In this document: in pieces, positions 20,331-36,826 of the stretch
Layout: every line of letters begins with the position of its first letter
Position numbering within the stretch: position 1 is the stretch's first letter
Origin: Rathayibacter sp. VKM Ac-2879
Lineage (GTDB): Bacteria; Actinomycetota; Actinomycetes; Actinomycetales; Microbacteriaceae
DNA length: 64,000 nucleotides
Assembly: GCF_015351245.1 (NCBI RefSeq)
Contig: NZ_JADKSO010000003.1
Span: 62,001 to 126,000, forward strand
Direction of reading: 5' to 3'
The notes under the pieces: model-generated
Databases searched by the model: none
What the model was told of the DNA's origin: nothing
What the model saw: only the letters and a program-made list of their open reading frames with translations
Translations under genes and position numbers: made by a program

Positions 20331-20373
20331 GGGGGTACCGATGAGAAAGTACCGAAAAAGGGGGGTACTGATG
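20331..20373. repeat. Direct repeats upstream of the ECF sigma gene
   Basis: GGGGGTACYGATG occurs at 20331-20343 and 20361-20373, exactly 30 nt apart. The heptamer GTACYGA occurs three times (20335, 20349, 20365). The stretch is A/G-rich and of lower GC than its surroundings. It lies 30-85 nt upstream of the predicted sigma promoter, so it may be an operator. Confidence 0.6.
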
Positions 20374-20401
20374 TCCTTCCAAAAAGGAGACAGCCGTCCG
20401 C

Positions 20402-20407
20402 TACAGT
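20402..20407 (+). promoter_or_regulatory. -10 box for leaderless ECF sigma gene
   Basis: TACAGT with 7 nt (CCGAGAA) before ATG 20415. The nearest purine-rich stretch (AAAAAGGAGA, 20381-20390) is too far upstream to act as a ribosome-binding site for this ATG, which supports a leaderless mRNA. Confidence 0.5.
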
Positions 20408-20414
20408 CCGAGAA

Positions 20415-20960
20415 ATGGACTCCGGCGACGACCACCGCCTTCTCCTCGGGATACTCGCCGGAGAGAGAGCTGCTTTTGCCATGCTCTATGGTCGGCACGC
20501 CGACGCGGTCCTGAGCCGTTCCCTCTCCGCGCTCGGAAACATGGATGACGCCCACGACCTCGCTCAGGAGGTCTTCGTCCTCACCCTGCAGGAGCCGGCG
20601 CGCATCCGCCTGAAGGGCGGCTCCGCCCGCCCCTGGCTGCTCGCGACGTGCGACGACCTCGTCCGGCGCCGGCTGCGGAAGGCGTCGCAGGAGCCTGTCG
20701 CTGCTCCGCCGCCCCCTCCTCGGCTCGTCGACGCTGGCCAGATCGAAGAGCGGGTGGACACCCTGCTGATGATCGACCGCCTGGAGCGCGCGGTGGCGCG
20801 GATGAACGAGCTCGACCAGTTCGTCTATCGGTCGGTCCTCCACGACGGGCACAGCTACGAGGAAACAGCGGCAGCCCTGACCATCTCGGCGGCGTCGGTG
20901 CGCAAGCGGCTCCACCGAGTGCGCCACCGGCTGCGGGAGGAGTCTGCCGACGAGCACTGA
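20415..20960 (+). CDS. ECF-type (sigma-70 family) RNA polymerase sigma factor
   Basis: 181 aa. Region 2 (about 14-75) includes AAFAMLYGRHADAVLSRSL and DDAHDLAQEVFVLTL, the core-binding and -10-recognition helices. Region 4 (about 120-178) includes ELDQFVYRSVLHDGHSYEETAAAL and SAASVRKRLHRVRHRLRE, the -35 helix-turn-helix. The linker is Pro-rich. No anti-sigma gene is adjacent. The next genes encode the PstS-like secreted protein and the Pst-like operon on the same strand, so control of that locus is plausible but inferred. The frame is open upstream to 20256, but without similarity. Confidence 0.85.
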   Translation: MDSGDDHRLLLGILAGERAAFAMLYGRHADAVLSRSLSALGNMDDAHDLAQEVFVLTLQEPARIRLKGGSARPWLLATCDDLVRRRLRKASQEPVAAPPPPPRLVDAGQIEERVDTLLMIDRLERAVARMNELDQFVYRSVLHDGHSYEETAAALTISAASVRKRLHRVRHRLREESADEH

Positions 20961-21009
20961 GACGGGCCGGGGCTCGGGAGGATGCGCGACGTTACCCCCC
21001 TCCGAGCAG

Positions 21010-21031
21010 ATTCATGGATCATTCATGATCC
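21010..21031 (+). promoter_or_regulatory. Two 11-nt tandem repeats, PHO-box-like
   Basis: ATTCATGGATC followed directly by ATTCATGATCC. Tandem 11-nt units beginning with (G/A)TTCA(C/T) resemble PhoP boxes of streptomycetes (GTTCACC-type units). Here they lie ~350 nt upstream of a PstS-like gene. Two units only, so the match is weak. Confidence 0.3.
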
Positions 21032-21257
21032 TGACCCAGGACAGCCAGAAAGCGTTCGCCCGCTGGTCCCCGTCCGCCGGCACGGGGGAGTCGCGTACCC
21101 GGCATACTCATCTCGGATAGAGCGGGACGGAAAATGAACGCCGGAAAGGCGCCCGAATCCCCCTCTCGACAGACTTCGCCCGAAACGAGTCAGTCGCTGG
21201 ACGGCAGGCCTCTCACGACACGCCTGTATCGACATGCGCTGTGCCCACGACGAGCGA

Positions 21258-21292
21258 AGTGCCCGCCGCCAGCGGATCTGGCGGCGGGCACT
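21258..21292 (+). terminator. Perfect 15-bp GC hairpin upstream of the PstS-like gene
   Basis: AGTGCCCGCCGCCAG (21258-21272), the 5-nt loop CGGAT, and the exact complement (21278-21292). There is no T-run. It lies ~300 nt after the sigma gene and 90 nt before the next start, so it may end the sigma transcript or act as an attenuator in the leader of the next gene. Confidence 0.55.
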
Positions 21293-21381
21293 CACAGGGG
21301 TTCGCCTCTGCCATCGGTTGCAGCCCGGCTGGCGCATGCCCCCCAAACAAGAGCACTATAACAAAAGGAATCTTTGTTCTC

Positions 21382-22554
21382 ATGAAGAAGTCATCCTTCG
21401 CCCGCGTCGTCTCGGCCTGCGCCGCGGCACTCGCCCTCTCGCTCGCCGGCGCCACCGTCGCGTCGGCCGAGCCGAACCCGCTGCCCACCCCCGGCAACGC
21501 CGCCAGCTACCGCACCTACTCGGCCGTCGGTTCCGACACCATCCAGGATGTGTGGAACGGCCTCTCCAACGGAACCGGCGCCTCCGTCTCGTCGGTCGCC
21601 TCGTGGAACGCCTTCCCGTCGACCCTCTCGAGCACCATCCAGACCAGGAACGGCGGCCCGACGTTCCTCCGTCCCCGCGGCTCGGGCGCCGGCGTGAAGG
21701 CGCTCAGCGCCTCGTACCACGCCCCCTTCACCTACGACAACGGTGCCGGCGGCGTCGTCAACATTCAGAAGCAGGTCCAGTTCGCTCGGTCCTCGTCGGG
21801 CCCGGCGGCTGCCGCAACCGGCCAGCTGCAGTACGTCCCCTTCGCCCGCGACGCGGTGAGCATCGCCTACCAGTCCGGCACCGCCACCTCGGGCACCCCC
21901 AAGTTCTCGAAGGCCCAGCTCAACGCGATCTTCTCCTGCTCGGCCTCGGCCGACGGCGTGATCGGTGTCACCGCGGACGGCTTCCCCAAGATCAACGCCT
22001 CGAACAAGGTCCTCAAGCCCCAGCTCCCGCAGGCCAGCTCGGGTACCCGGTCGTTCTTCATCAACGCGATCGGCCTCAGCAGCATCGGCAGCTGTGTCGT
22101 GCAGGGCGCTCCCGAGAACGACGGCACTGCCTTGACCGCCGTCGGCGCGGTCATCCCCTTCTCGGTGGCGCAGTGGATCGCCCAGAAGAACTCCTCCTCG
22201 ACCGGCGTCACGAACACCGTCTCGAACACGGGCCTGCGCATCGCCAATCTCATCAACGGCGCTGACACGCAGACCGCCGTCACCACCGTGAACGGCGTGC
22301 TCAAGCCGGGCACCCTCTACGGCTCGGCGACCGCCGTGCCGGACTCGACCGTCAACCCCCTCGCGCGGGACACCTACAACGTCGTCGATGCCTCGACCAT
22401 CCGCACGGACGGCACGAAGTCCGGCCTCGAGACGACGCTGACCACCTCCCTCGCCACCTCGGCGGCCAAGCAGACGATCACCAAGTACGGGTTCCTCAAC
22501 CTCTCGTACCTCGGTGACCGCAGCTTCTACCGTAACGGCGCCTACACCAACTAG
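21382..22554 (+). CDS. Secreted PstS-like substrate-binding protein
   Basis: 390 aa. The Sec signal peptide MKKSSFARVVSACAAALALS... ends at VASA-E (cleavage near residue 29), with no lipobox cysteine and no C-terminal anchor, so it is released. The mature part looks like a PstS-type phosphate-binding fold: AVGSDTIQDVWNGL near the N-terminus, RPRGSGAGVKAL as the phosphate-loop equivalent, and QYVPFARDAVSIAY in the hinge region. ATG 21382 is chosen because it begins the signal peptide; AAAAGGAA lies ~12 nt upstream. A strong terminator follows, so it is probably a single-gene transcript at the head of the Pst-like locus. Confidence 0.8.
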   Translation: MKKSSFARVVSACAAALALSLAGATVASAEPNPLPTPGNAASYRTYSAVGSDTIQDVWNGLSNGTGASVSSVASWNAFPSTLSSTIQTRNGGPTFLRPRGSGAGVKALSASYHAPFTYDNGAGGVVNIQKQVQFARSSSGPAAAATGQLQYVPFARDAVSIAYQSGTATSGTPKFSKAQLNAIFSCSASADGVIGVTADGFPKINASNKVLKPQLPQASSGTRSFFINAIGLSSIGSCVVQGAPENDGTALTAVGAVIPFSVAQWIAQKNSSSTGVTNTVSNTGLRIANLINGADTQTAVTTVNGVLKPGTLYGSATAVPDSTVNPLARDTYNVVDASTIRTDGTKSGLETTLTTSLATSAAKQTITKYGFLNLSYLGDRSFYRNGAYTN

Positions 22555-22562
22555 TTCCTCCC

Positions 22563-22596
22563 GGTGTGCCCGGCCGCTGCCGCGGCTGGGCACACC
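22563..22596 (+). terminator. 15-bp hairpin terminator after the secreted PstS-like gene
   Basis: Arms 22563-22577 and 22582-22596 (GGTGTGCCCGGCCGC / GCGGCTGGGCACACC, one G-U pair) with a TGCC loop, 8 nt after the stop. It separates this gene from the operon that follows; partial read-through would give differential expression. Confidence 0.7.
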
Positions 22597-22673
22597 GCCG
22601 CGCGTCAGCGCCCCCTCGCACGCCGCACTCGCGACGTCGACTCCCGCTTTGCACAGAAAGTCGCCCTTCTTCG

Positions 22674-24140
22674 ATGATCATCAGCAGATCCACCGCGACA
22701 GCCCTCAGCATCGCCGCCCTCGGCGCGGTTCTCGCCCTCGGGGCACCGAGCAGCGCGGTCGCCGCCTCCGCGTCGACGATCTCCTTCGCTCCGGAGAGCG
22801 GGCGATGGAGCGATCCGGCCGCTCTGATGACGACCGACTTCAGTTGCCTCCCCGGCTCACAGGACGACCTACCCCGGGTGAGCGGCTTCCTTGCCGAGCC
22901 CGGCAACGAAACTCCCGCGGTGGACGCGGACACGGCCGTGATCCCGAGCGTGTACCCCTACACGAAGCCGAACGGCGACCTGTCTCAAGGGCTCACGGAC
23001 GTCGCGACCGGCGCCGACGGAAAGCTTCCCGCCGACCTTCGGCTCGACATGTTCATGCCGGGGACCTGGTTCTACGGCACCGACTTCTCGGAGGTCACCG
23101 ACATGGGGACCGAGCTGGCCCCCAACCACACCTACAGCTTCGGTCTGTTCTGCTACTCCGACGCGACCGGCGCTTACCAGCGCGATGCCGACGGCCGTGT
23201 GCATTCCGCCTGGATCCCGCTCTACACCGGCGCCGACGGCTCCTGGTCCTTCGTCGAGGGCGGCACGCCCGTCGAGCAGGCCGCCACGGCCGTCGATCTG
23301 ACAGCCTCGCTCGCCGACGACCAGGCCACCGTCGATGCGACGGCCACAGTCCGCGCGATCAACGGCGCGAATACGCTCAGCGACGCGACCGGCACGGTCA
23401 CCTTCCGCGAAGGGGCCACCGTCGTCGGCACAGCGAGCACGAAGGACGGCGTGGCCCAGACCTCCTTCACGGGGCTCCCGGCCGGCGACCATCGTTTCAC
23501 CGCGAGCTACACGCCCGATGCTGCGGCGAGTGGACGCTACAAGGCCTCCTCGGCCTCCGCCGAGTCTCCCGCAGTGACGATCCCCAAGGACGGGGACACC
23601 CCGGACGTTCCGGGAGCCGAGCTGAACCCCGGTGACACCGTGACGGCCGGATCGGCCTACAAAGTCACCGTCACGGCAGGCTCCTTCACCGCCGGCGACA
23701 CGCTGTCGGGCACCGTCACCCCTGACGGGACCTCGCTGGACGAGACCGCAGTCGTCGCGGCCGACGGCTCGGCCGTCTACGGCTTCACCGCTCCCTCCGG
23801 GTTCGCCGCTGGGTCGCACCAGCTCGTGATCGCCGACGAGCACAGCATCTCGGTGACGGTGGCCTTTACCGTGCCGACGGAGTCGACCCCGTCGGCCTCG
23901 CCCAGCCCGAGCGCCAGCGCGAGCGCCGCGGCCGTCCCGCCGGGCACCACGGCGAGCCCGTCGCCCAATGCCGCAGTCGCCTTCGCCACCGGCTGGGTCG
24001 GAGGGATGGCCTCGACGCCGCTCGGTGCAGCGACACTCTTCGGCACGCTGCTGATGACCACCGCGGCCGTTGTCGCCGGCTGGGTGTTCTTCTGGCGCCG
24101 CCGGTCGGCGACCGCCACCATCCGCGGCGACCAGGAGTAG
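22674..24140 (+). CDS. Exported Ig-like protein with C-terminal membrane anchor
   Basis: 488 aa. Signal peptide (MIISRSTATALSIAALGAVLALG..., cleavage near AVAA), an N-terminal ~180-residue domain with two cysteines, then a Big_3_5-like Ig repeat (about 205-300: GTVTFREGATVVGTAST, FTASYTPD). A second beta-sandwich follows (about 305-400: LNPGDTVTAGSAYKVTV), then a Ser/Pro-rich linker (about 403-440) and one helix ending in WRRR. No LPXTG is present. First gene of the operon; its stop lies 5 nt before the next start. Likely a surface stalk or adhesin, perhaps a scaffold for the transporter; this role is inferred. Confidence 0.75.
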   Translation: MIISRSTATALSIAALGAVLALGAPSSAVAASASTISFAPESGRWSDPAALMTTDFSCLPGSQDDLPRVSGFLAEPGNETPAVDADTAVIPSVYPYTKPNGDLSQGLTDVATGADGKLPADLRLDMFMPGTWFYGTDFSEVTDMGTELAPNHTYSFGLFCYSDATGAYQRDADGRVHSAWIPLYTGADGSWSFVEGGTPVEQAATAVDLTASLADDQATVDATATVRAINGANTLSDATGTVTFREGATVVGTASTKDGVAQTSFTGLPAGDHRFTASYTPDAAASGRYKASSASAESPAVTIPKDGDTPDVPGAELNPGDTVTAGSAYKVTVTAGSFTAGDTLSGTVTPDGTSLDETAVVAADGSAVYGFTAPSGFAAGSHQLVIADEHSISVTVAFTVPTESTPSASPSPSASASAAAVPPGTTASPSPNAAVAFATGWVGGMASTPLGAATLFGTLLMTTAAVVAGWVFFWRRRSATATIRGDQE

Positions 24141-24145
24141 CGGGA

Positions 24146-26926
24146 GTGCACGCCACCTCCCGGGTGCTCGCGGGGATCGCGACCGCCGGCCTCTTCTGCT
24201 CCATCGTCTCGGCGGCGATGCTGCTCGGACCGCAGCAGTCCGCCTCCGCCTCTCCCGTCGCCGTGCAGGGTTGGGGTTCCCAGGGCGAGTACTCCTCGTC
24301 GAGTCCCGTCACCGTCCGCTGGGACAACGCACGCAACAGCGCCGAGAACACGGTTCCGCGCGACAAGACCGCCGTGCTCCCGCACACGGGTGGCGCAACA
24401 TACGACGACATCGATCCTGCGGTCACGAGCCTCTACACGAACCGCTTCGGGGCCCAGAACGGCAAGGGCGGGCTCGAGGTCTCCGTGTCGCAGACCCGCG
24501 AGCTCGTGAACCAGTCGGTGACCGTCTCCGTCTCGGGTGCCGTGCCCGACCCGTCGGACTTCCTGCCCTTCTTCCAAGTCTTCCAGTGCTGGGGCGCCCC
24601 GGGTTCCGACGGCAAGCCCGACCCTGACGCGACCGCGCCGGACCCGGAGACCTGTCAGGTGGGAGCGGAGGGAGCCGACGCATCCCCGAAGCTGCGCACC
24701 GAGAACACCCGCGCGATCTATGCCGACCCGCTCATCGCGAAGGGCGACTGGAAGACCACCGACGAGTTCACCCCGGGCGCTCCGTTCCGGGCGGTCGACG
24801 GCACCCGCATCCGCACCGAGGCGATCCACGACGTGGAATCGAACACGTACTTCTCGGGAAAGACGACAAACGAACTCTCCCTTCTCACCGCGCAACGCGA
24901 CGGCACCGGGGACCGCCTCATGGAGATGCAGACGGGCTCCGAAGCGCCCGGCCTCGGCTGCGGCTACCGTGCCGACACCGCGAGCACCAGTACCTGCTGG
25001 ATCGTGGTCGTCCCCCGGCTCCGCGGGACCGACGACACCTCGACGCAGTTGCTGCTATCGGGCCCGGTCGCGCCGTCGCTGTGGGCACAGCGCCTCCAGA
25101 TCAAGCTCGACTTCTCGGACGTTGCGGCGAGTTGCCCGAACGGCCGCGCCCAGGTGCTGACCGCCGGCTCCGAGATGCTCACCCGTGCGATGGCGTCCTG
25201 GATCCCTGCCGTCTGCTCGGCCTCGCAGGTCTCGCTGGGCTACTCCCAGCTGGGCGACAGCCAGGCCCGTCTGCAGCTCGGCACCGGCGCGCTGCAAGCG
25301 GTCTTCAGCAGCCGACCGCCGGACGACCCGACGAGTGCGATCTCGATGCCCGTCGCCACTACCGGAGTCGTGATCGCCGCCACGATCGACTACCGCCCCC
25401 GATGCGGCGGCCCGGGTTTCGACGCCGACACGATCACGGAGGCTCAGGCAACCGGACAGTGCGGCTACCCGGACCTCTCGACGGCGCAGAGGGAGATCCG
25501 CAAGTACGGCACCCTGATGACCGGCATCAAGCTCAACGCCCGACTCGTGGCGAAGCTCCTGACAGAGTCGTACCGGGCCGGCATCGACGATGAGTCGGGC
25601 AACCAGCTCGCGACGAAGGCCCCGTGGGCGATGGCGCTCACGGCCAACCTCGGGACCGATCCGGAGTTCCGCGCGCTCAACCCCGAGCTCCAGTACGCCG
25701 TCGACTTCAGCTTCGGCACGCGATCGGGCGACCTCATGGTCGAGAACCTCCGCTCCGACGCCGCCGAGGCGCTCTGGGAGTGGATCCACGCGGACGACAA
25801 CGCCCGCAGCTTCCTGGACGGCTGCCCCGACCCGTACGGGTCGACCGTGAATCCGTTCTACTCCACGCGCAGCTACAAGGAGTGCGTGGTCGACGCCCCG
25901 CATCTCGAGGCCGACGCGAAGGCGAAGCGCGATGCGACCGAGTTACCGAAGTTCTTCGTCGATGCACCCGCCGTCTACCCGCCCGACAGCGCGAGCTACC
26001 CGCAGCTCAGCTGGTACCAGCGCGACCCTGTCGGGGTCTTCACTGCGCAGACCCTCAACGACCTGCACCCGCGTAGCGACACGATGGCGACCACCGGACG
26101 CAACACCTTCCGCGCCATCTATCCGGCGAACACCGACTGGTGCGATCCGCTGAGCGACAGCCGGTGCGCGGTGGCGGGCTGGCTCTCGCCGAAGACGCCG
26201 CAGGATGTCGGCAGTCGCACCGTGATCTCGATCACCGACGCCTCCACCGCAGCGCGCTATCAGCTGCCCACCGCCGAGCTGTGCTCGTACGACGGAGGCG
26301 CGTGCGTCTCGGCGAACGCCGGCTCGCTCGCGAAGGCGGCCTCGCGATTCGAGCAAGACCCCACCGGGGTCGGCCCGATGACGGTCGACGACTACCAGGC
26401 AGGGCTCTACCCGCTGGCGCTGCCCATCTACGCCCAGGTCGCCCGAGCGTCGTTGACCCCCGTGACGGCCTCGGCCTTCGCCGACTCCTTCACTTATCTC
26501 ACGGGTGACGGACAGCGCACAGACGGCACCAGCGGATCGCTCCCGGTCGGCTACGCATCGCTCACCTCGGCGCAGAGCGCTCAGGCCGCCAGCGCTATCG
26601 CCGAGCTCCGGGGAGCGCAGTCCGTGCCGTCCGCGGCACCGTCGTCGGCGGCACCCACGCCGCAGACGGCGGCCCCCGTCGCCGCACCGGCCGCCGCGGC
26701 GGCTCCCGCTGCACCGCGAGCCGCCGCTCCCGTGGTGACGACTGCCTCGACCGCTCCGGTCGCCGCGGCCGATGCCCCGGTCGCCGCGCTACCCGCCACC
26801 ACGACGACCGGCCGCACCGAGATCGGGTTCCCCCAGTACGGGCTCGTCGGCGGTCTCGTCGCGGCTCTGGCGTCCGGAATCCTCGCCCCGGTGCTCGGCC
26901 GCCGACGGAAGGCGGCAGCAGAATGA
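24146..26926 (+). CDS. Large exported PstS-locus protein with C-terminal anchor, function unknown
   Basis: 926 aa with GTG start (GGAG 9 nt upstream). The N-terminal hydrophobic segment ends in QSASAS, a signal peptide. The ~750-residue mature part is Cys-containing and matches no domain I recognise with confidence. Parts such as WAMALTANLGTDPEFRALNPELQY and the locus context hint at a divergent binding-protein-like fold. An Ala/Pro-rich stalk (about 820-880) leads to LPATT at residues 882-886, then a hydrophobic helix and RRRK, a layout like a cell-wall sorting signal with Thr replacing Gly of LPXTG. It overlaps pstC by 4 nt (ATGA). Confidence 0.6.
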   Translation: MHATSRVLAGIATAGLFCSIVSAAMLLGPQQSASASPVAVQGWGSQGEYSSSSPVTVRWDNARNSAENTVPRDKTAVLPHTGGATYDDIDPAVTSLYTNRFGAQNGKGGLEVSVSQTRELVNQSVTVSVSGAVPDPSDFLPFFQVFQCWGAPGSDGKPDPDATAPDPETCQVGAEGADASPKLRTENTRAIYADPLIAKGDWKTTDEFTPGAPFRAVDGTRIRTEAIHDVESNTYFSGKTTNELSLLTAQRDGTGDRLMEMQTGSEAPGLGCGYRADTASTSTCWIVVVPRLRGTDDTSTQLLLSGPVAPSLWAQRLQIKLDFSDVAASCPNGRAQVLTAGSEMLTRAMASWIPAVCSASQVSLGYSQLGDSQARLQLGTGALQAVFSSRPPDDPTSAISMPVATTGVVIAATIDYRPRCGGPGFDADTITEAQATGQCGYPDLSTAQREIRKYGTLMTGIKLNARLVAKLLTESYRAGIDDESGNQLATKAPWAMALTANLGTDPEFRALNPELQYAVDFSFGTRSGDLMVENLRSDAAEALWEWIHADDNARSFLDGCPDPYGSTVNPFYSTRSYKECVVDAPHLEADAKAKRDATELPKFFVDAPAVYPPDSASYPQLSWYQRDPVGVFTAQTLNDLHPRSDTMATTGRNTFRAIYPANTDWCDPLSDSRCAVAGWLSPKTPQDVGSRTVISITDASTAARYQLPTAELCSYDGGACVSANAGSLAKAASRFEQDPTGVGPMTVDDYQAGLYPLALPIYAQVARASLTPVTASAFADSFTYLTGDGQRTDGTSGSLPVGYASLTSAQSAQAASAIAELRGAQSVPSAAPSSAAPTPQTAAPVAAPAAAAAPAAPRAAAPVVTTASTAPVAAADAPVAALPATTTTGRTEIGFPQYGLVGGLVAALASGILAPVLGRRRKAAAE

Positions 26927-27987
26927 CCTCGCTCCTGCCGCCCGTGGGGCGACCGCAGCCCGAGCAGTCGACCCTGCTGCCCGGCTACCCCGCGGAGGGC
27001 GACGACGACGCCCGACCGATCCTCCTGACCCGTGTCCTCGAGCGCAGCGATCGGCTCTTCCGCGGAGTCACGCGCAGCGGCGGCGTGATGGTGCTGCTGA
27101 TCATGGTGCTGGTCGGCGTGTTCCTCAGCGTGAACGCGGTGCAGGCGATCTCATCGGTCGGGGTGGTGGAGTTCGTCACCGAGACCCAGTGGTCGCCCGA
27201 GACGAACACCTTCGGCATCGCCGCGATCCTCACCGGCACAGTGCTCATCGCGGCGGTCGCCCTCGTTGTCGCCCTGCCGCTAGCCCTCGGGATGTCGCTG
27301 TTCCTCACCGAGGTCGTCTCGGGCGGCTTCCAGCGGATCCTGCGCTCCGTCATCGATCTGATGGCCGCTGTCCCCTCCGTGGTCTTCGGTCTCTGGGGGC
27401 TCGCCTTCCTCCAGGTGCAGGTCGTCCCGTTCGCCCGCTGGCTCTCGACGTGGTTCGGCTGGATCCCGCTGTTCGCCGTCGATGGTGCGGACCCTGCCAA
27501 CCCGTTGCCCAACGACTCCCTCTACACCTCGTCGACGTTCATCGCCGGACTCGTCGTCGCCCTGATGATCGTGCCGATCATGACCTCGATGATGGTCGAG
27601 TCGTTCTCGCGGGCGCCCATCGGCGAGAGGGAGGCGGCGTTCGCCCTCGGCGCCACCCGATGGGGCATGATCCGGTCCGTCGTCCTGCCGTTCGGCAAGG
27701 GCGGCGTCATCGGAGGCACGATGCTCGGCCTCGGTCGGGCGCTCGGCGAGACCATCGCGATCTACCTCATCATCGCGCCGGTCTTCCAAATCAATTTCCA
27801 CGTCCTCCAGCGCGGGGCCAACTCGATCGCGGCACATATCGCGCTGCGCTACGGAGAGGCAAGCCCCTTCGCCATGAGCGCGCTCATGGCGGCCGGTCTA
27901 GCGCTGTTCCTGCTCACCATGCTCGTGAACTTCACGGCGTCGACGGTGATCGCCCGATCGCGCTCCGGCGCGGAGAGTGAAGCATGA
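26923..27987 (+). CDS. pstC: Phosphate-type ABC transporter permease PstC
   Basis: 354 aa, about six membrane helices after a ~50-residue cytosolic N-terminus. The permease coupling loop reads EREAAFALGATRWGMI (EAA motif), followed by the PstC-typical GGTMLGLGRALGETIAI, with RALGE as the family mark. PSVVFGLWGLAFL is also family-like. Its ATG overlaps the stop of the 926-aa protein, and its stop overlaps the pstA start, both as ATGA, implying obligate co-translation with the surface proteins. Ion selectivity (phosphate or another oxyanion) is assigned by family. Confidence 0.9.
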   Translation: MTSLLPPVGRPQPEQSTLLPGYPAEGDDDARPILLTRVLERSDRLFRGVTRSGGVMVLLIMVLVGVFLSVNAVQAISSVGVVEFVTETQWSPETNTFGIAAILTGTVLIAAVALVVALPLALGMSLFLTEVVSGGFQRILRSVIDLMAAVPSVVFGLWGLAFLQVQVVPFARWLSTWFGWIPLFAVDGADPANPLPNDSLYTSSTFIAGLVVALMIVPIMTSMMVESFSRAPIGEREAAFALGATRWGMIRSVVLPFGKGGVIGGTMLGLGRALGETIAIYLIIAPVFQINFHVLQRGANSIAAHIALRYGEASPFAMSALMAAGLALFLLTMLVNFTASTVIARSRSGAESEA

Positions 27988-29321
27988 CCACCACCCTCCC
28001 CCGTCTCGCCCTCCCCGAGACCGGTGACGACGATGGCCGTGTGGTCATCGGCTTCTCGCGCGACGACGTCCTGACCGTCGTCGGGGCGATGGTCGCTGGC
28101 CTCAGCGTCGGACTCCTGTTCACGGTCGTGATCGGCATCGTCCCGCCCGCTTGGATGCTCCTCGTCTCCTACCTCTGGTTCGTCGGTATCTACGCCACTC
28201 TGGTGTTCCTCCGCGAGCGGGGTCCGGCGGTGCGCGACCGGTTCTGGACCGTTCTGCTCTGGTCGTCGGCGACAGTGGTCGTCGGCTCCCTCGCCCTCGT
28301 CATCGTCTTCACGCTCATCAGCGGGCAGGATGTCTTCGCCCAGATGGTCGATCCCGCAAGCGGGCAGGGCCTCTGGGACCGCCTGCACTTCTTCACCCAG
28401 GACATGGGTGGCGTCGGGCCACTCGCCGAGCTCGACTCGGGCGGAATCCTCTACGCGCTCGTGGGCACGATCGTGCAGATCTCGATCGCCCTTGTGATCA
28501 CCATCCCCTTGGGGCTCACGACCGCGATCTTCCTCAATGAGGTCGGAGGCCGCCTCGCCCGTTTCGTGCGGACGATCGTCGAGGCCATGACCGCCCTGCC
28601 GTCGGTCGTCGCAGGTCTGTTCATCTACGCCGCAGTAATCGTCGCCGTCACCCGCCAGTTCAACGGCTTCGCCGCCTCCCTCGCCATCACCGTGCTGATG
28701 CTGCCCATCATGATCCGCTCGTCTGACGTCGTGCTGCGCCTCGTGCCCGGCAACCTGCGGGAGGCGGGACTCGCGCTGGGTGCGGGCCAGTGGGCAGTGA
28801 TCTGGTCGGTCGTGCTGCCGACCGTCCGCTCGGGGCTGACGACCGCGATCATCCTCGCGACGGCCCACGGGATCGGCGAGACCGCCCCGGTCCTCTTGAC
28901 GGCCGGCGTGACCTCGAACCTGAACCTCAACCCGTTCGACGGGCCGATGACCTCACTGCCGCTGGCCGCACTCGAGTTCGTGAAGAGCTCGCAGAACACC
29001 ATGAAGGCGAGGGGCTTCGCCACGGCGGCGTTCCTCCTGATCCTGGTGCTCGTGCTCTTTCTCATCGCGCGGGCGATCGGCGGACAGGAGCCCGGCAACC
29101 TGACCGCCCAGCAGCGCCGGCGCCTCGCGCGGCGCTCGATCGAAACGGCCGCCCGGATGCGCCGCAGCCGTAGGGCCGCCGAGCAGCAGTGGACCATCGC
29201 TGCGCAGGATTGGTCCTCCGCCCTGGAGTCCGAACTGGGTTTCTCTGCCCCGCCTCAGCCCGACCAGCCCGCCCACCCCGACGAGCCCCCGCAGACCCAC
29301 CCCACCGGAGACCCACGATGA
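27984..29321 (+). CDS. pstA: Phosphate-type ABC transporter permease PstA with extra N-terminal helices and long tail
   Basis: 445 aa, longer than the usual ~280-300. Two added helices (about 30-80) precede the normal six. PstA marks are EAMTALPSVVAGLFIYA, the coupling loop LREAGLALGAGQWAVI and AHGIGETAPVLLTAG. The last ~75 residues form a basic then Pro/Gln/His-rich cytosolic tail not seen in standard PstA. The start overlaps pstC (ATGA) and the stop overlaps pstS (ATGA). The extra parts may contact the other locus proteins; this is inference. Confidence 0.9.
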   Translation: MTTTLPRLALPETGDDDGRVVIGFSRDDVLTVVGAMVAGLSVGLLFTVVIGIVPPAWMLLVSYLWFVGIYATLVFLRERGPAVRDRFWTVLLWSSATVVVGSLALVIVFTLISGQDVFAQMVDPASGQGLWDRLHFFTQDMGGVGPLAELDSGGILYALVGTIVQISIALVITIPLGLTTAIFLNEVGGRLARFVRTIVEAMTALPSVVAGLFIYAAVIVAVTRQFNGFAASLAITVLMLPIMIRSSDVVLRLVPGNLREAGLALGAGQWAVIWSVVLPTVRSGLTTAIILATAHGIGETAPVLLTAGVTSNLNLNPFDGPMTSLPLAALEFVKSSQNTMKARGFATAAFLLILVLVLFLIARAIGGQEPGNLTAQQRRRLARRSIETAARMRRSRRAAEQQWTIAAQDWSSALESELGFSAPPQPDQPAHPDEPPQTHPTGDPR

Positions 29322-31033
29322 CCCGCCGCCCTCCCGCCCGACGCCGATCGATCACCGCGTCGATTGGCGCGCTCCTCGTCCTCGGGGCCGTCGCCCTCTC
29401 TGCGGGGCCCGCCTCGGCCGCCAGCTACCAGCGCATCTCGGGCGCCGGCTCCAGCTGGGCCGGCAACGCGGTGCTGCAGTGGCAGGCCGATGTGAAGAAC
29501 CAGGGCGTGACCGTCGACTACAACCCCAACGGGTCTTCCCAGGGGCGCAAGGACTTCGCGGCGCAGGTGAGCACCGACTTCACCGTCTCCGAGATCCCCT
29601 ACCGCGGAGACACGGCGGACCCCCGCGACACGAGCTACCCCGACTTCGGCTTCTCGCAGATGCCCATGGTCGCCGGCGGGACGTCCTTCATGTACAACCT
29701 GCCCGTCAACGGCCAGCGCTTCACCGAGCTGAAGCTCTCGCAGCAGGCTGCCGCCGGCATCTTCTCGGGCCAGATCCTCAAGTGGAACGATCCGCTGATC
29801 GCGGCCGACAATCCCGGAGTCAACCTCCCGGAGGCGCCCATCACCGTGGTCGTGCGCTCGGACGGCTCGGGAGCGACGGCGCAGTTCACCCTCTGGATGC
29901 TCCGCCAGTTCCCTGACTCGTACCGTGCACTGTGCAGTGCCTCCGGCGCGTGCGACGGACAGCACGCGACCAGTTACTTCCCCGCGGCGAACCTCGCGAA
30001 TGTGGTCCCGCAGTCGGGCTCCGTCGGCGTCACGACCTACACTCAGAACACGCCGTACACGATCAATTACGACGAGTACTCCTACGCCCAGCAGGTCGGC
30101 TATCCCGTCGCACAGCTGAAGAACGCGGCCGGCTTCTATACGGTGCCCTCGGAGGGTGCTGTCGCAGTGGCGCTGATCAAGGCCGCGATCAACAACAACG
30201 CGAGCGACCCGAACTACCTCTCGCAGGATCTCTCGGCCGTCTACCAGTATCAGGACCCCCGCGCTTACGCACTGTCGGCCTACTCGTACTTCTTCGTGCC
30301 GACGCAGACGACCGCGAGCTTCGACGCTGCGAAGGGCGCGACCCTCGGCTTCTTCACGCAATACTCGCTGTGCGAGGGACAGCGCAAGATGGGCCCACTC
30401 GGCTACTCGCCGCTGCCGATGAACCTCGTGCTCGCCGCGCTGGAGGAGGTGCGGAAGATCCCCGGCATCGACGCCGACACCCTCGCGAAGCTCGACGCGG
30501 TCAAGAACAGCACCCTCGACGCCGCTGGCGGCAACCCGTGCAACAACCCCACGTTCCAGCCCGGCGACGACCCCTCCCACAACCTGCTCGTCGACACCGC
30601 GCCGTTCCCTGCCGGCTGCGACGATGCCTGCCAGGCGCCGTGGCGGCAGAAGGGCGCGGGAGTCGCGGCGTCCGGCCCGAGCTTCACCGCCCCGGAGACC
30701 AACGGAGCGCCCGCTGCGGCCGCTGCTCCCACCGACACCACGTCCGGTACGACGACCGCCACGACGACGACCACGGATCAGACGACACCTGTCGCGGCGG
30801 CAGTCACCGCCTGCGACGCCGACACCGGCACCTGTGCCGGCACCAGCACAGCGGCGACCACGACCGCCGCGGGGCTCGCCGTCACGCCCGTCTCGACGGT
30901 GCTGCCGGGGCAGCAGGGATGGGCCGGGCCGCAGACCCTCATGGTGCTCGCAGCGCTCTTCGGTGCCTTGCTGCTCGTGGGGCCGCCGCTCGTGTCGCGC
31001 TTCCTGGGCCGTTCGACGGCCGGACGACGGTGA
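29318..31033 (+). CDS. pstS: PstS-like substrate-binding protein tethered by a C-terminal helix
   Basis: 571 aa. The basic N-terminus and signal peptide end in ASAAS without a lipobox Cys. The PstS core has ISGAGSSWAGNAVLQWQAD, GSSQGRKDFAAQ, KWNDPLI and VVRSDGSGATAQFTLW (phosphate-loop region SGAT). Length up to ~400 suits PstS. After it come a Cys-containing extension, a Thr/Ala-rich stalk (about 455-540) and a membrane helix ending RFLGRSTAGRR. Standard PstS proteins are lipoproteins; this one is anchored at the other end. ATG overlaps pstA (ATGA). The substrate is inferred as phosphate-like. Confidence 0.85.
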   Translation: MTRRPPARRRSITASIGALLVLGAVALSAGPASAASYQRISGAGSSWAGNAVLQWQADVKNQGVTVDYNPNGSSQGRKDFAAQVSTDFTVSEIPYRGDTADPRDTSYPDFGFSQMPMVAGGTSFMYNLPVNGQRFTELKLSQQAAAGIFSGQILKWNDPLIAADNPGVNLPEAPITVVVRSDGSGATAQFTLWMLRQFPDSYRALCSASGACDGQHATSYFPAANLANVVPQSGSVGVTTYTQNTPYTINYDEYSYAQQVGYPVAQLKNAAGFYTVPSEGAVAVALIKAAINNNASDPNYLSQDLSAVYQYQDPRAYALSAYSYFFVPTQTTASFDAAKGATLGFFTQYSLCEGQRKMGPLGYSPLPMNLVLAALEEVRKIPGIDADTLAKLDAVKNSTLDAAGGNPCNNPTFQPGDDPSHNLLVDTAPFPAGCDDACQAPWRQKGAGVAASGPSFTAPETNGAPAAAAAPTDTTSGTTTATTTTTDQTTPVAAAVTACDADTGTCAGTSTAATTTAAGLAVTPVSTVLPGQQGWAGPQTLMVLAALFGALLLVGPPLVSRFLGRSTAGRR

Positions 31034-31992
31034 CGGGCATGACGACCCCGCCACTCACCGCACCGCCACTCTCCGGAGTCACCGCTGAGCGCCCTCGTCG
31101 GATGCGGCGCGGCGCCGCTGCCGTCAGATGGGTCGAGGCACCCGCCTTCGAGCGTCTGCTCTCTCTCGTGCTCACGATGCTGTCGGTGATCATCCTCGCG
31201 CTGCTGGTGAACCTCGTGTTCGTGTCGCAGGTGCAGCACTACGCGAGCCAGACCGCGCTCTACGACGAGATCCGCCTCTCGCTCGCGCAAGGCGCCACGC
31301 CGACCGGTCCGCTCACCTACGACGGCACCCTCGTGACGCCGGGCGAGCCGGTCGCCGTGCTCAGTGCACCCGCGATCGGGATCGACCACGAAGTGGTCGT
31401 CGAGGGCACCTCCTCCGCGCAGACCATGGTCGGCATCGGGCACCGTCGCGACACCGCGCTGCCCTGCCAGGTCGGGACAGCCGTGCTGATGGCGAGGGGA
31501 GGGGCCTATGGGGGCGTGGGCCAGTCCTTCAAGAGCCTCACGGAGGGATCCACCTTCACCGTCGCGATGGGGCAGGGCACCTGCACCTATGAGGTGACGG
31601 GGTCCCGTCTTCCTGGCGATCAGGCGCCGGCCGCACCCATCGGCTCCGAGGGTCGACTGACGCTGACCACGGCGTCGGGATTCCCGTTCTTCCCGACCGA
31701 GGTCTACCGTGTGGACGCCCGCCTCGTGGGCGACGGATTCGGTCGACCGGCCGTCACGCTCCCCACCGGTGCGCTTCCCACCTCCGAGGCGGCGATGGGC
31801 ATCGACTCCTCGAACCTGTTCGGCCTCGTCCTGCTGCTCGAGCTGCTGGTCCTCGTCGCGGTCGGCACCACCTGGCTCTGGAAGCGGTGGGGCCGCTGGC
31901 AGGCATGGATCGTCTGCGGGCCCGCGGTCCTCGCGGTCGGCGTCCTCACCGCAGGAGCGGTGAACCAGTGGCTCCTCCCCAACCTTCTCTGA
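31030..31992 (+). CDS. Sortase-fold membrane protein lacking catalytic His and Cys (pseudosortase)
   Basis: 320 aa from GTG 31030, whose first bases form a GTGA overlap with the pstS stop; ATG 31039 is an alternative. One N-terminal membrane helix (about 45-65), a class E/F sortase-like barrel (about 105-240: VLSAPAIGIDHEVVVEGTSS, then GHRRDTALPCQVGTAVLM), and two C-terminal helices. Where sortases have AGHR, this reads LMARGGAYGG (R156 at the His position). Where they have LTLTTC, it reads LTLTTASG (A215 at the Cys position). Transpeptidation is therefore not expected. A structural or substrate-presenting role with the active sortase downstream is inferred. Confidence 0.75.
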   Translation: MTGMTTPPLTAPPLSGVTAERPRRMRRGAAAVRWVEAPAFERLLSLVLTMLSVIILALLVNLVFVSQVQHYASQTALYDEIRLSLAQGATPTGPLTYDGTLVTPGEPVAVLSAPAIGIDHEVVVEGTSSAQTMVGIGHRRDTALPCQVGTAVLMARGGAYGGVGQSFKSLTEGSTFTVAMGQGTCTYEVTGSRLPGDQAPAAPIGSEGRLTLTTASGFPFFPTEVYRVDARLVGDGFGRPAVTLPTGALPTSEAAMGIDSSNLFGLVLLLELLVLVAVGTTWLWKRWGRWQAWIVCGPAVLAVGVLTAGAVNQWLLPNLL

Positions 31993-32057
31993 GCCCCCCC
32001 GGCTGTACCGGCCGCCGTCTTCCCTGCTCCACCCCTGCTCGACCTCGAAGGAGTCCG

Positions 32058-33005
32058 ATGAGAATCCCCCTGCTCGGCAAGCGCCCGTCCGAGGCGACCG
32101 CCACCGGTCCCGCCGAGGACGGTGAGCCGGCCGATGACCTCGCCGGGCCGCAACCCCCCTTCGAGACCTTGCTCGCCCGGGAGGAGTTCGACGACACGCG
32201 GGTGCGTCACGAGCTGTTCGGCGAAACGACGGCGGCCGAGCTCGTCGCCGACAACATCTCGGCCTGGTTTGGCTCGCGCAAGGTCCTCGATCGGGTGTCG
32301 CTCACGATGGAGGCGGGCAAGGTCACAGCCCTCATCGGACCGTCGGGCTGTGGCAAGTCGACCTTCCTGCGCATCCTGAATCGGATGCACGAGATGGTGC
32401 CGTCGGCGTCGCTCGCGGGCGAGGTGCGCCTCGGCGGTCAGGACATCTACGAGCCGTCCCAGCGCATCACGGTCGCCCGCCGCAACATCGGGATGATCTT
32501 CCAAAAACCCAACCCGTTCCCGGCAATGAGCATCTACGAGAACGTTGTCGCTGGGTTGAAGCTCTCGGGCATCCGTGCGACCCGTGAGCAGAAGGACGTG
32601 CTCGTCGAGGACTCGCTGCGCAAGGCCGCACTCTGGGACGAGGTCAAGGACCGCCTCGAACAGCCAGGAGGCGGCCTTTCCGGTGGCCAGCAGCAGCGTC
32701 TGTGCATCGCACGCTCGCTGGCCGTCTCGCCGCAGGTGCTGCTCATGGACGAGCCCTGCTCGGCCCTCGACCCCACCTCGACGAGGCGGGTCGAGGAGAC
32801 GATCGCGTCGCTTCGTGGCCAGGTGACCGTCGTGATCGTGACCCACAACATGCAGCAGGCGGCCCGCGTCTCCGACGAGTGCGCCTTCTTCCTCGCCGCC
32901 CAGAACACCCCCGGCGTGATCATCGAGCACGGCGCGACGGAGTCGATGTTCGGCGATCCGCAGGACCAGCGGACGATGGACTACGTCAACGGCCGGTTCG
33001 GATGA
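32058..33005 (+). CDS. pstB: Phosphate-type ABC transporter ATPase PstB
   Basis: 315 aa. Walker A GPSGCGKST (94-102), the PstB-specific RRNIGMIFQKPNPFP (about 141-155), signature LSGGQ (207-211), Walker B VLLMDEPCSALDP (227-239) and switch H263 in VTHNM. A ~60-residue acidic N-terminal extension is unusual. AAGGAG lies 5 nt before the ATG, after a 65-nt gap from the previous gene, the only real gap in the operon and the only gene there with a strong independent ribosome-binding site. The stop overlaps the start of a 51-aa membrane peptide (ATGA). Confidence 0.93.
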   Translation: MRIPLLGKRPSEATATGPAEDGEPADDLAGPQPPFETLLAREEFDDTRVRHELFGETTAAELVADNISAWFGSRKVLDRVSLTMEAGKVTALIGPSGCGKSTFLRILNRMHEMVPSASLAGEVRLGGQDIYEPSQRITVARRNIGMIFQKPNPFPAMSIYENVVAGLKLSGIRATREQKDVLVEDSLRKAALWDEVKDRLEQPGGGLSGGQQQRLCIARSLAVSPQVLLMDEPCSALDPTSTRRVEETIASLRGQVTVVIVTHNMQQAARVSDECAFFLAAQNTPGVIIEHGATESMFGDPQDQRTMDYVNGRFG

Positions 33006-33157
33006 CGTGGCGCGGCGTTTTGGGCGTCGCCGTGGCGATCTTTCTCCTGGTCGGGATCATCGGCTGGGTGCTCGGGATGCCCGAGCCCGCCCGGCTCGTG
33101 GGGGCGATCGTGCTGGATCCCGCGGTAGTACGCCTCCTCGTGACGGGGAGGGGATGA
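33002..33157 (+). CDS. 51-aa single-span membrane peptide between pstB and sortase
   Basis: A short frame with ATG overlapping the pstB stop (ATGA at 33002-33005) and its own TGA overlapping the sortase ATG (ATGA at 33154-33157). The product has one hydrophobic helix (GVLGVAVAIFLLVGIIGWVLG, about residues 5-25) and a short amphipathic tail ending LLVTGRG. The double 4-nt coupling argues that it is translated. It could stabilise the transporter or the sortase, but nothing in the sequence names a role. It is easily missed because of its size. Confidence 0.65.
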   Translation: MTWRGVLGVAVAIFLLVGIIGWVLGMPEPARLVGAIVLDPAVVRLLVTGRG

Positions 33158-33846
33158 GGGGCGCGCTGCCGTGGCTGGGCCTCGCGTTCGCGGGGAGCGC
33201 TCTGGCGGTCGGGGCGACGCTCGTCGTCCTGCAGGTGACCGCTTCGCCGTCGACTCGAGGCTCGACGGCCTCCTCCCTTGCCTCGGCCGTTGCGGGTGCC
33301 CAGCAGGCGGGCCCCGGCGCGACAGGGGGGCCGGCGCAGGCCTCAGCGGCGGCGGCGGACCCTGTCGCGTCGGAGGCTCCGCCCGTCGCCGGTCAGCCTG
33401 AGGCGCTGCGCATCCCGTCTGTCGGACTCGACGCGACGGTGCGCACCCTCTCGGTCGATCCCGGCTCTGTCGTCGATCCGCCCGGTCCCGACGACGCATA
33501 TTGGCTCTCGGACTACGGAGTCGCCGGTCCTGCCGCGACGAACACGGTGTACCTGGCCGGCCACAGCTATCGCCGCGGCGGTGCGGTCTTCAACCCGCTG
33601 CTCGACCCGCCGCACGAGCGGAGTGCGGTCGCGACCGGCGACGCGATCGAGGTGCAGACTCCGGAGGCCGTGTATCGCTACACCGTGACCGACGTGCAGC
33701 GCTATGACAAGGCGACCGTGGGGAGCGAGGACGAGCTGTGGCGCCGCGTCCCTGGTCGCCTCGTTCTCGTCACCTGTTTCCAGTACGACGACGGGCAGGC
33801 CTCGACGCAGAATCTCGTGGTGTACGCGAGCCTCGACCGGCAGTGA
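33154..33846 (+). CDS. Class F sortase
   Basis: 230 aa. N-terminal membrane anchor (about 4-26), an Ala/Gly/Pro-rich linker, then a sortase barrel from about residue 85 (LRIPSVGLDATVRTL). Catalytic H137 in VYLAGHSYRRGG and C208 in LVLVTCFQYDDG are intact. The usual downstream Arg is not obvious (ASTQNLVVYA instead). Class F enzymes of actinobacteria attach proteins to peptidoglycan. As the last gene of the Pst-like operon, coupled through the 51-aa peptide, its likely clients are the anchored surface proteins encoded upstream, though none has a canonical LPXTG. Confidence 0.85.
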   Translation: MRGALPWLGLAFAGSALAVGATLVVLQVTASPSTRGSTASSLASAVAGAQQAGPGATGGPAQASAAAADPVASEAPPVAGQPEALRIPSVGLDATVRTLSVDPGSVVDPPGPDDAYWLSDYGVAGPAATNTVYLAGHSYRRGGAVFNPLLDPPHERSAVATGDAIEVQTPEAVYRYTVTDVQRYDKATVGSEDELWRRVPGRLVLVTCFQYDDGQASTQNLVVYASLDRQ

Positions 33847-33894: not shown

Positions 33895-34224
33895 TCACGA
33901 GGCCCGGTCCGGTTCGGTCATCGGCAGCTCCGACGACGTCTGCATGATCGTGCGCGGGATGAGAGTCTGGTTCCGTGGCAGGTCAGCACCGGACAGGGCG
34001 AGGTCGACGTTGGCGGGGAACATTCGGATCAGTAAGAGCGTGAGCCCGGTGGCTGCCCAGGGTGCGAGTCGACGAGAGGCCATGGCGGCGGCCGCAGCGA
34101 GCTCGAGCACACCCGTGACGGTGACAATGACATCGGGCACCGGGAACAGGCCGGGCACCATCGCGATCAGATCCTCCCGCACGCCGATGAAATGACTCGG
34201 ACGGGTGCGCGCTGCGGAGGACAC
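33895..34224 (-). CDS. Short DoxX-like membrane protein, probably N-terminally shortened
   Basis: 109 aa. The segment HFIGVREDLIAMVPGLFPVPDVIVTVTGVLELAAAAAM and the end TLLLIRMFPANVDLALSG match the second half of small DoxX-family proteins. The usual first membrane helix is missing; translation would start at GTG 34224 with only a few polar residues before the HF motif. The frame stays open upstream, but without hydrophobic sequence. It lies at the edge of the lower-GC island and may have been cut by the insertion. Weak ribosome-binding site. Confidence 0.6.
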   Translation of the reverse strand: MSSAARTRPSHFIGVREDLIAMVPGLFPVPDVIVTVTGVLELAAAAAMASRRLAPWAATGLTLLLIRMFPANVDLALSGADLPRNQTLIPRTIMQTSSELPMTEPDRAS

Positions 34225-34334
34225 GGACGTTCCAACTCCTCCCCCGAATTTGGGCGGTGGAATGGCGCCAGGACTGATTCGCTGACGGCTCGGGGAGCCG
34301 TAGACCCTGTCGCTCGCCGTTTACCGTGCAGCTC

Positions 34335-34340
34335 TACACT
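34335..34340 (+). promoter_or_regulatory. -10 box for leaderless orphan gene
   Basis: TACACT with 6 nt (CCGAGC) before ATG 34347. A 7-bp hairpin (ACGGCTC / GAGCCGT, 34285-34301) lies just upstream. Confidence 0.45.
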
Positions 34341-34346
34341 CCGAGC

Positions 34347-34676
34347 ATGGCCGAACGTCACTGGAGCGCAGACGCTCACATCGCCCGGACCGACGTCGCT
34401 CTCGCGCTGAGCCAGCATGGCTCCAAACCGATTCCGCAAGAAGCTCAATATCGGCTGGACTTTCTCAACATCGTCTTGGCAGTTGACTTCCAAACGATGA
34501 AGTCGGACCAGGCAATCCCCAGGCTGCTCGAACTCCTCGAGAAGATCCGCGCCGAAGCAAGCAGATTGACGTGGCAGCTATCAACTCTTGTCTGCAAGAA
34601 GGGAATGTGCGAGGCCGAGGTGCGAATCGCTCTGGACTTGTCCGTGAGCCCGAGAAGAAGGGGATTGCCGTTGTGA
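34347..34676 (+). CDS. Orphan 109-aa protein in island region
   Basis: No family recognised. The N-terminus is HIS/ASP-containing (ERHWSADAHIARTDVALALS) and the middle is helical (QYRLDFLNIVLAV, RLLELLEKIRAEASRLTWQL). Codon use is less GC-biased than in the flanking core genes, which suggests transfer. A GTG at 34326 could add seven residues, but the TACACT box 6 nt before ATG 34347 favours the shorter form. The stop overlaps the next gene's GTG (GTGA), so the pair is co-translated. Confidence 0.5.
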   Translation: MAERHWSADAHIARTDVALALSQHGSKPIPQEAQYRLDFLNIVLAVDFQTMKSDQAIPRLLELLEKIRAEASRLTWQLSTLVCKKGMCEAEVRIALDLSVSPRRRGLPL

Positions 34677-35170
34677 ACAAGCGTGGAGATACCGGCTGGG
34701 GACAACTGCGCTGGATGATCCTTGGCTCAATTCTTGGAACCTGGATAGCGATCATCGCTGTGATCGTTCACCTATGGGTACTCGAGAGCCTGCAGTCAAT
34801 CACAGACAGCGCAGAATTGAACCCGGGGCTTGATCTGAATGGTCTACTGAGCGTCGCCGGCTGGCTGCTGGGAATACTGATCATCTCCATCCCTGTCAGC
34901 GCTGTGTTCGCGGTGTTTCCTTTCCTCGGGTACTTGCTCGGCTCCGCCATCACTCGTTTCTATCGTGCGGGCGAGTCGGTCGATGTGGCTCTCAGTGGTG
35001 CGGTGGCCCTCTTGGTTGGGGGGATCGCAGCTGTCATCATCGTCTCGGCGCTGGAATCATCTGCCCTAACTCCTGCCGCAGTCTTCGTCCTTCTCGCATC
35101 AGTTGCCACCGTTTCACTTGCTCGCCTTCCGCTCTCTTCCGATAACGACCGATCTAAGCTCACAACCTGA
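34673..35170 (+). CDS. Orphan four-helix membrane protein in island region
   Basis: 165 aa from GTG 34673, overlapping the preceding stop (GTGA) with AAGGGG ~11 nt upstream. Four hydrophobic stretches: WMILGSILGTWIAIIAVIV, LLSVAGWLLGILIISIPVSA, GAVALLVGGIAAVIIV and AAVFVLLASVATVSL. No family recognised. The upstream open frame is part of the previous gene's region and is polar. Lower-GC codon choice matches its partner gene. Confidence 0.55.
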   Translation: MNKRGDTGWGQLRWMILGSILGTWIAIIAVIVHLWVLESLQSITDSAELNPGLDLNGLLSVAGWLLGILIISIPVSAVFAVFPFLGYLLGSAITRFYRAGESVDVALSGAVALLVGGIAAVIIVSALESSALTPAAVFVLLASVATVSLARLPLSSDNDRSKLTT

Positions 35171-35490
35171 ACATCACACTGAGGCCGCCAATCGCTCACA
35201 AGAGAACGCCACAATTGCCCTCATCAACGTGATGCACAGTAGGCAGGTCGCTGTGCGGAGCGCTCCCTCGGCTCTCCGATTCGGATCGGATGGGTCATCC
35301 TCCTACAACGCGAGCTCCTTGTGAAGACTCACGCCGAAGGAAGCTGCTCGACCCGGCGGCGATTAGCTCATCCCAGCACCGCAGAAAGAAACGTGAGCAA
35401 TGGTCTTGCAAATTTCCGAGTTGGTATCAATCATCTATCAAAGCGGGCCGAGTGTGCCCTACGCTGAACCGCCGTCTGTGGGAGGGCCTC
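35171..35490. other. 320-nt stretch without a recognisable gene
   Basis: Moderate GC, no family-like frame and no clear repeat. Short frames here have no ribosome-binding site or similarity. It is probably decayed DNA of the island. Confidence 0.5.
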
Positions 35491-35664
35491 GTGAATGCTG
35501 ACGAACCATTTGGGGATCGTGCACGCGAACGATTCGGTGACGAGGTGGCGCACGTCCACGTACTGCGGCTGCTCGGCCACATGCGGGTGCAGCTCGCCGA
35601 CGGAACCCGCATTCTTCTCGACGAGAACGGTGTCCAGATCGGCCGCACCCTCCCGCCGGTCTGA
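35491..35664 (+). CDS. Small orphan protein (57 aa)
   Basis: GTG start with GGAGGG 4 nt upstream. The product is acidic/basic mixed, beta-rich at the end (MRVQLADGTRILLDENGVQIG), and unlike anything I recognise. A longer form from further upstream would include low-complexity basic sequence and is less likely. Composition is closer to the core genome than the neighbours. It could be a genuine small gene or a fragment. Confidence 0.4.
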   Translation: MNADEPFGDRARERFGDEVAHVHVLRLLGHMRVQLADGTRILLDENGVQIGRTLPPV

Positions 35665-35691
35665 CCGTATAGAAATACTGGCCCACTCTAG

Positions 35692-36156: not shown

Positions 36157-36204
36157 GCACAAGAGGAAACACTACACGCGATCGGGAGCCGGTGCAAATC
36201 GAGG

Positions 36205-36822: not shown

Positions 36823-36826
36823 CGGG

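Follow-up and report, generated by a model that had tools for sequence, protein, structure and literature searches.

The 64,000-nucleotide (nt) stretch of Rathayibacter sp. VKM Ac-2879 analyzed here (contig NZ_JADKSO010000003.1; hereafter the window) contains a run of ten plus-strand genes (21382–33846) encoding, in order, PstS1, an immunoglobulin (Ig)-like surface protein, the 926-amino-acid (aa) protein p926, PstC, PstA, PstS2, a putatively dead sortase (the pseudosortase), PstB, a 51-aa membrane peptide, and a class F sortase-like protein (Table 1). Seven of these genes form a core: PstC, PstA, PstB, the three PstS-fold proteins (PstS2, p926, PstS1), and the pseudosortase. Genomic neighborhood analysis shows that this locus is real and conserved as a system, but that its parts differ from those proposed in a first-pass annotation of the same DNA, which had joined the Pst genes to Ig-like, 926-aa, inactive sortase, 51-aa, and class F sortase genes. 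All of these genes were identified. Six junctions are 4-nt overlaps (p926/PstC, PstC/PstA, PstA/PstS2, PstS2/pseudosortase, PstB/51-aa, and 51-aa/class F sortase) and the Ig/p926 junction is a gap of +5 nt, exactly the seven tight junctions counted earlier. Wider spacers separate the pseudosortase from PstB (68 nt) and PstS1 from the Ig gene (119 nt), and a gene for an extracytoplasmic function (ECF) sigma factor lies 421 nt upstream of PstS1. PstC, PstA, and PstB clear their NCBIfam cut-offs, PstA and PstB by only about one bit. The absence of PhoU, also claimed earlier, holds within a scan that was limited to the ten proteins of the locus.

Table 1. Genes of the locus, with window coordinates, supporting features, and standing relative to the conserved core
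Feature	Coordinates	Strand	Supporting features	Standing
ECF sigma factor	20415..20960	+	TIGR02937 51.1 bits	neighbor, not core
PstS1, secreted PstS-fold protein	21382..22554	+		core
Ig-like (Big_3_5) surface protein	22674..24140	+	PF16640 E 2e-10; predicted C-terminal membrane segment	variable part
p926, giant PstS-fold protein	24146..26926	+	uncharacterized N-terminal part; predicted PstS fold 333–829; predicted C-terminal membrane anchor	core
PstC permease	26923..27987	+	TIGR02138 239.8 bits (cut-off 196.45)	core
PstA permease	27984..29321	+	TIGR00974 194.5 bits (cut-off 193.45)	core
PstS2	29318..31033	+	PF12849 113 bits; TIGR00975 187 bits; hydrophobic segment 541–559, predicted C-terminal membrane anchor	core
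Pseudosortase, putatively dead sortase domain	31030..31992	+	PF04203 27.2 bits; one N-terminal and two C-terminal predicted membrane segments	core
PstB ATPase	32061..33005	+	TIGR00972 343.8 bits (cut-off 343.2)	core
51-aa membrane peptide, probably what remains of a lytic transglycosylase anchor	33002..33157	+	alignment to the L001 transglycosylase N-terminus	not core
Class F sortase-like gene	33154..33846	+	PF04203 55 bits; NF033748 46.3 bits (cut-off 166)	neighbor, not core

The starting relative, locus L001 of Leifsonia sp. ALI-44-B, has the order PstS1-Ig-p926-PstC-PstA-PstS2-pseudosortase-PstB, the same as the window. A p926 profile matched 12 of the 60 genomes sampled from one family. 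With a 14-row profile, some match occurred in 85 of the 198 genomes of an order sample, split into 18 strong matches (E 4e-59 or better), one fragment at a contig edge (G130, E 1.5e-16, which stands outside every count of 36 given below), and 66 weak matches (E 2e-12 to 5e-4). The weak matches mostly involve the C-terminal portion of the PstS-like region, and the 11 examined are ordinary PstS. At the level of the phylum, 33/198 sampled genomes matched (4 strong, 2 distant [G272 and G258], 27 weak); one genome, G001, is common to all three samples. The window and 35 fetched surroundings of strong and distant p926 matches make up a set of 36 loci, which was searched with hidden Markov models (HMMs) of each part. 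All seven core genes exceed fixed HMM thresholds in 23/36 loci. The full core rises to 26/36 when L114, whose p926 homologue had a better score as PstS2, and L076 and L083, whose PstB runs off the end of the fetched stretch, are added. Eight loci are cut by contig ends (L035, L071, L077, L078, L079, L082, L085, L110), and their visible part is consistent with the core.

A functional unit is indicated most strongly by the retention of gene content while gene order changes. Relatives with the whole set usually have the order PstC-PstA-PstS2-p926-PstS1-(surface genes)-pseudosortase-PstB. PstS1 follows PstB in L111 and L112, further orders occur in L114 and L083, and in L113 a PstC-PstA-PstB-PstS2 group is divergent from pseudosortase-p926-PstS1. 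L113 and L114 are two relatives deep in the phylum, and both keep all seven core genes in a changed order. A chance neighborhood is ruled out by the recurrence of the core across the loci of other genomes. Plasmid carriage was likewise rejected, as neither the pseudosortase nor p926 had a match in 72,556 plasmid records. In a neighborhood search of the kind the first-pass annotation had proposed, p926, the secreted PstS-like protein, and the pseudosortase stay with the pst genes, whereas the class F sortase, the ECF sigma factor, and the Ig protein are not conserved. The p926 homologues of L113 and L114 are shorter (open frames of 647 and 613 aa) and possibly closer to the ancestral form. Genome G001 carries both system architectures (L001 and L027) plus an ordinary Pst locus, with three PstC genes over the cut-off.

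Judged by its residues, the pseudosortase is a catalytically dead sortase domain, kept through the set, in agreement with the earlier claim that the sortase at this position is inactive. PF04203 (cut-off 26.6 bits) detects the domain both in the window protein and in its L030 counterpart (52.4 bits), and the best PDB sequence matches are sortases, which have AGHR where the pseudosortase has ARGG. The residues that we take to be catalytic in sortases were followed through an HMM alignment with 27 rows, each from a different locus that covers the site. The His site is Arg in 27/27; the Cys site is Ala in 24, Ser in 2, and Gly in 1, and never Cys; and the position taken for the catalytic Arg, placed by counting, is Arg in 1/27. 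The sortase domain likens the protein to the class E and class D sortases (NF033747, NF033746, PF04203), and its best NCBIfam match is class E, far below the cut-off, in the window and the three relatives scanned. Unlike these enzymes, it has Arg at the His site and Ala, Ser, or Gly at the Cys site in every row. The window protein, with hydrophobic segments at 47–65, 263–281, and 293–311, further differs from them by the two extra C-terminal segments. The extreme C-terminus carries an LPNLL-type motif, whose P, N, and L are invariant in 13/13 alignment rows; the C-termini of L113 and L114 differ (PSTI and PSTL). We know of no described case of a retired sortase with a retained role.

p926 is an enlarged PstS, with a predicted fold that covers residues 333–829, the whole of the PstS domain; its N-terminal part (about 55–330) was barely sampled by the fold search. 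PstS1 also has a PstS fold by structure prediction. A profile comparison with two rows each gave no match, and when repeated with about 30 rows it matched p926 to PstS2. Pfam and NCBIfam scans leave both p926 and PstS1 unnamed; a fold and a context can now be given for them. The PstS fold of p926 and the core membership of PstS1 had both been missed in the first-pass annotation. In L033 and L036, PstS1 is fused to Ig-type repeats (with Pfam support for L033). PstS2 matches its binding-protein family well; on the PstS equivalog model TIGR00975, the window protein falls under the cut-off of 205 bits and its L030 relative reaches 217.4 bits. Positions F11, D56, R135, S139, G140, and T141 (E. coli numbering) are presumably the ligand residues of PstS. 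The binding-loop residues R135, S139, and G140 are kept in PstS2 in all 33 loci covering the loop, as they are in ordinary PstS. The F11 position is Trp in 33/33 and A/S/T in the ordinary PstS of the same genomes, and the T141 position varies in PstS2.

The ordinary importer was examined in 20 genomes drawn from the 29 system-bearing genomes known at that stage. A second PstC over the cut-off is encoded elsewhere in all 20, and PhoU, in one copy, is present in 19/20, always away from the system locus. The 20 ordinary Pst loci, taken as 7–7.5-kb stretches, all contain PstS, PstC, PstA, and PstB, and HMMs of p926, PstS1, and the pseudosortase found a match in 0/20 of them. In a maximum-likelihood PstC tree, a 100/100 branch splits 33 system rows from 20 ordinary rows, and the window PstC pairs with that of L001 (80% identity). 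The system is a second Pst and probably an accessory importer, separate from the housekeeping Pst. It resembles the PstSCAB importer (TIGR00975, TIGR02138, TIGR00974, TIGR00972) in that PstC, PstA, and PstB exceed the family cut-offs, PstS2 matches PstS families, and the Arg and Ser-Gly of the PstS2 binding loop are kept. It differs from PstSCAB in having its own PstC clade, no linked PhoU, two further PstS-fold proteins, predicted C-terminal anchors, a linked pseudosortase and surface proteins, and a Glu for the ligand Asp in 30/33 loci. By the family tests, the pump is of the Pst type, and no described parallel was found for the assembly.

These comparisons bear on another explanation, in which the system would be a further phosphate importer of the ordinary high-affinity kind, equipped with additional binding proteins as in mycobacteria, and the pseudosortase and surface proteins would be riders without a shared task. 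Mycobacteria, like the system, have several PstS-fold proteins per organism (PDB entries PstS1 and PstS3), and both the family scores of PstC, PstA, and PstB and the phosphate-box-like repeats before pstC in some relatives fit this explanation. A rider, however, would hardly be expected to keep the same dead site in 27/27 rows, the seven core genes remain linked despite rearrangement deep in the phylum, and the extra core parts are missing from all 20 ordinary Pst loci, so a second ordinary importer appears unlikely. To our knowledge, none of the mycobacterial PstS proteins is both enlarged and linked to a dead sortase.

The repeats themselves were defined on the ordinary loci. The exact TTCA-N7-TTCA repeat occurs near the pstS start in 10/20 ordinary Pst loci, and GTTCACC-type 11-nt direct repeats stand upstream of ordinary pstS (L115–L134); they are the probable phosphate box of this order. 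A matrix from nine such sites recovers ordinary upstream regions in 20/20 cases at p<0.05 and 15/20 at p<0.01, a result that is circular for its nine source sites and set against a background that includes the ordinary loci. Before the system pstC, 12/33 loci have a site at p<0.05 (1.7 expected) and 5/33 at p<0.01 (0.3 expected). Upstream of PstS1 and of the PASTA kinase found in some relatives, the counts are 9/32 and 1/12 at p<0.05, with none at p<0.01. The pstC counts suggest that phosphate control of the system is likely in some relatives; in the window it is unproven. The sole TTCA-N7-TTCA repeat in the 64 kb of the window lies at 21011.

Beyond the core, the loci differ in their surface and signaling genes, counted with our own HMMs over the 36 loci. 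WxLIP-type proteins occur in 18/36 loci and none was found in the window, a PASTA kinase occurs in 12/36, and a lytic transglycosylase in 7/36. Pfam confirms WxLIP in L030 and L032, the two loci scanned (PF06030 over the cut-off), kinase plus PASTA domains in L030, and SLT_2 in L029. The WxLIP-type proteins and the PASTA kinase of many relatives were absent from the first-pass annotation. Because an ordinary importer is already present, with PhoU in 19/20 genomes, and one PstS2 ligand position is altered, a kinase or transglycosylase beside the core could point to a sensor rather than an importer. A signal from the envelope or from phosphate would then be detected by the pump with its three receptors and handed on to wall enzymes or the PASTA kinase, with transport secondary. 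However, the remaining loci, window included, yielded neither of these two proteins (some loci being cut short), and PstB and the permease keep their family scores, so pumping is probably kept. We therefore regard the sensor as doubtful.

The WxLIP proteins recall the csc/WxL clusters, which are described as proposed surface complexes, mainly in Firmicutes (PMC1534035, PMC9772566). The likeness consists of WxLIP (DUF916) proteins and a protein with a WxL-like motif in many relatives; the motif was seen by eye, and Pfam gave no match for the two WxL-like proteins scanned, those of L030 and L032. The system differs from the clusters so described by its linkage to a Pst pump and its actinobacterial host, and the window has no WxL-type proteins. 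The csc/WxL clusters serve as a precedent for the WxL part only. No description of the gene set was found among the open PubMed Central matches listed, subscription papers and bioRxiv being outside this coverage.

Four parts of the earlier account are dropped as conserved members: the Ig protein, the 51-aa peptide, the class F sortase, and the ECF sigma factor. The window-type Ig protein occurs in 2/36 loci, the window and L001 only, and the ECF sigma factor in 0/13 relatives. The 51-aa peptide, rejected as a conserved subunit, resembles the lytic transglycosylase N-terminal anchor of the nearest relative, L001. Its local alignment to the N-terminus of the transglycosylase-type protein after L001 pstB, the only one scored, reaches 82, a value reached by 0/2000 shuffles (maximum 47), and the L001 gene has the same ATGA overlap after pstB as the 51-aa gene in the window. 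The class F sortase turned up in no source but the window (1/31 sources, some cut short), with a profile built on one sequence. A sortase motif pattern also matched frames in L029, L032, L070, and L076, and these four, all located in different or overlapping reading frames, were for that reason judged to be chance matches. The term ‘sortase-linked’ accordingly stands for the dead sortase and falls for the class F one. The enzyme had been called active, and the sequence bears this out in part: its Cys (LVTC) and His (AGH) are in place, whereas no catalytic Arg was assigned. Its match to a sortase family and the tight overlaps of the window had suggested that an active class F sortase and the pseudosortase jointly anchor surface proteins to the wall as one unit with the permease. 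Given its presence in 1/31 sources, and an LPXTG-like motif near the C-terminus that one narrow pattern found, among the core and surface proteins, only in the L001 Ig protein (LANTG) and L030 PstS2 (LADTG), this arrangement is very improbable.

Gene content, predicted folds, lost catalytic residues, and the separate permease clade point to an accessory importer of the Pst type that is tethered to the cell surface, uses several receptors, and has a dead sortase as its docking subunit (probability roughly 0.55). By family, PstC, PstA, and PstB make up the membrane pump. As modeled, three PstS-fold receptors would serve this pump. PstS2 and p926 would both be membrane-tethered, p926 with a long exported body, and PstS1 would be secreted. 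For import, the receptors would catch a cargo, either a phosphate-type oxyanion or a phospho-ligand, and relay it inward to the permease. The pseudosortase would neither cut nor link; its docking role may be to hold the C-terminal tails of receptors or surface proteins beside the permease. Fastening to the wall could be provided by Ig-like proteins in the window or by WxLIP-type proteins in many relatives. A bolder and more tentative form of this proposal is an envelope-spanning uptake machine of monoderm bacteria, in which three receptors at rising distance from the membrane relay the ligand through the wall while the dead sortase holds their tails uncut at the permease. Little is understood of how scarce anions pass from the outer surface of thick-walled cells to a pump in the membrane, and this gene set offers a testable case.

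Several observations weigh against this surface-tethered importer. The fold models of p926 and PstS1 are both of modest confidence, and the profile match of PstS1 to PstS2 is weak (prob 53), with none to p926 (prob 0.4). The D56 position of PstS2 is Glu in 30/33 and Asp in only 3/33, against Asp in 20/20 ordinary PstS of the same genomes, and the profile alignment leaves a gap in p926 opposite the Gly-Ser-Gly of the PstS2 binding loop; therefore, the cargo may not be phosphate. Four of the five relatives with a phosphate-box-like site at p<0.01 belong to one clade, and a phosphate box in the window was rejected, as its intergenic region is not significant against the ordinary-pstS matrix (p 0.11 and 0.12). 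On two short draft contigs the neighborhood fails: the 2.2 kb that precede p926 in L081 contain none of the core genes, and the p926 of L084 gives way halfway to unrelated sequence. Finally, L027/L028 and L076–L078 are near-copies in the PstC tree, so the 36 loci are not independent and the counts are not counts of independent events.

Elsewhere in the window, the stretch just after the locus (34001–36200) has a lower G+C content (0.593 vs about 0.70). It ends at a tRNA-Met gene (36080–36156, minus strand), with a long hairpin at 35983–36018, and looks like a small island or remnant beside the tRNA. Open frames of 1016 and 1003 aa at 36767–39817 and 54436–57447 have no Pfam match at E 1e-5, and the first of them may not be a gene because of a long frame on the opposite strand. 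Two adjacent minus-strand genes at 47111–53562, which overlap by 4 nt and encode proteins of 1070 and 1080 aa, each carry UvrD helicase and PD-(D/E)XK nuclease domains and are what we take to be an AddAB/RecBCD-like pair.

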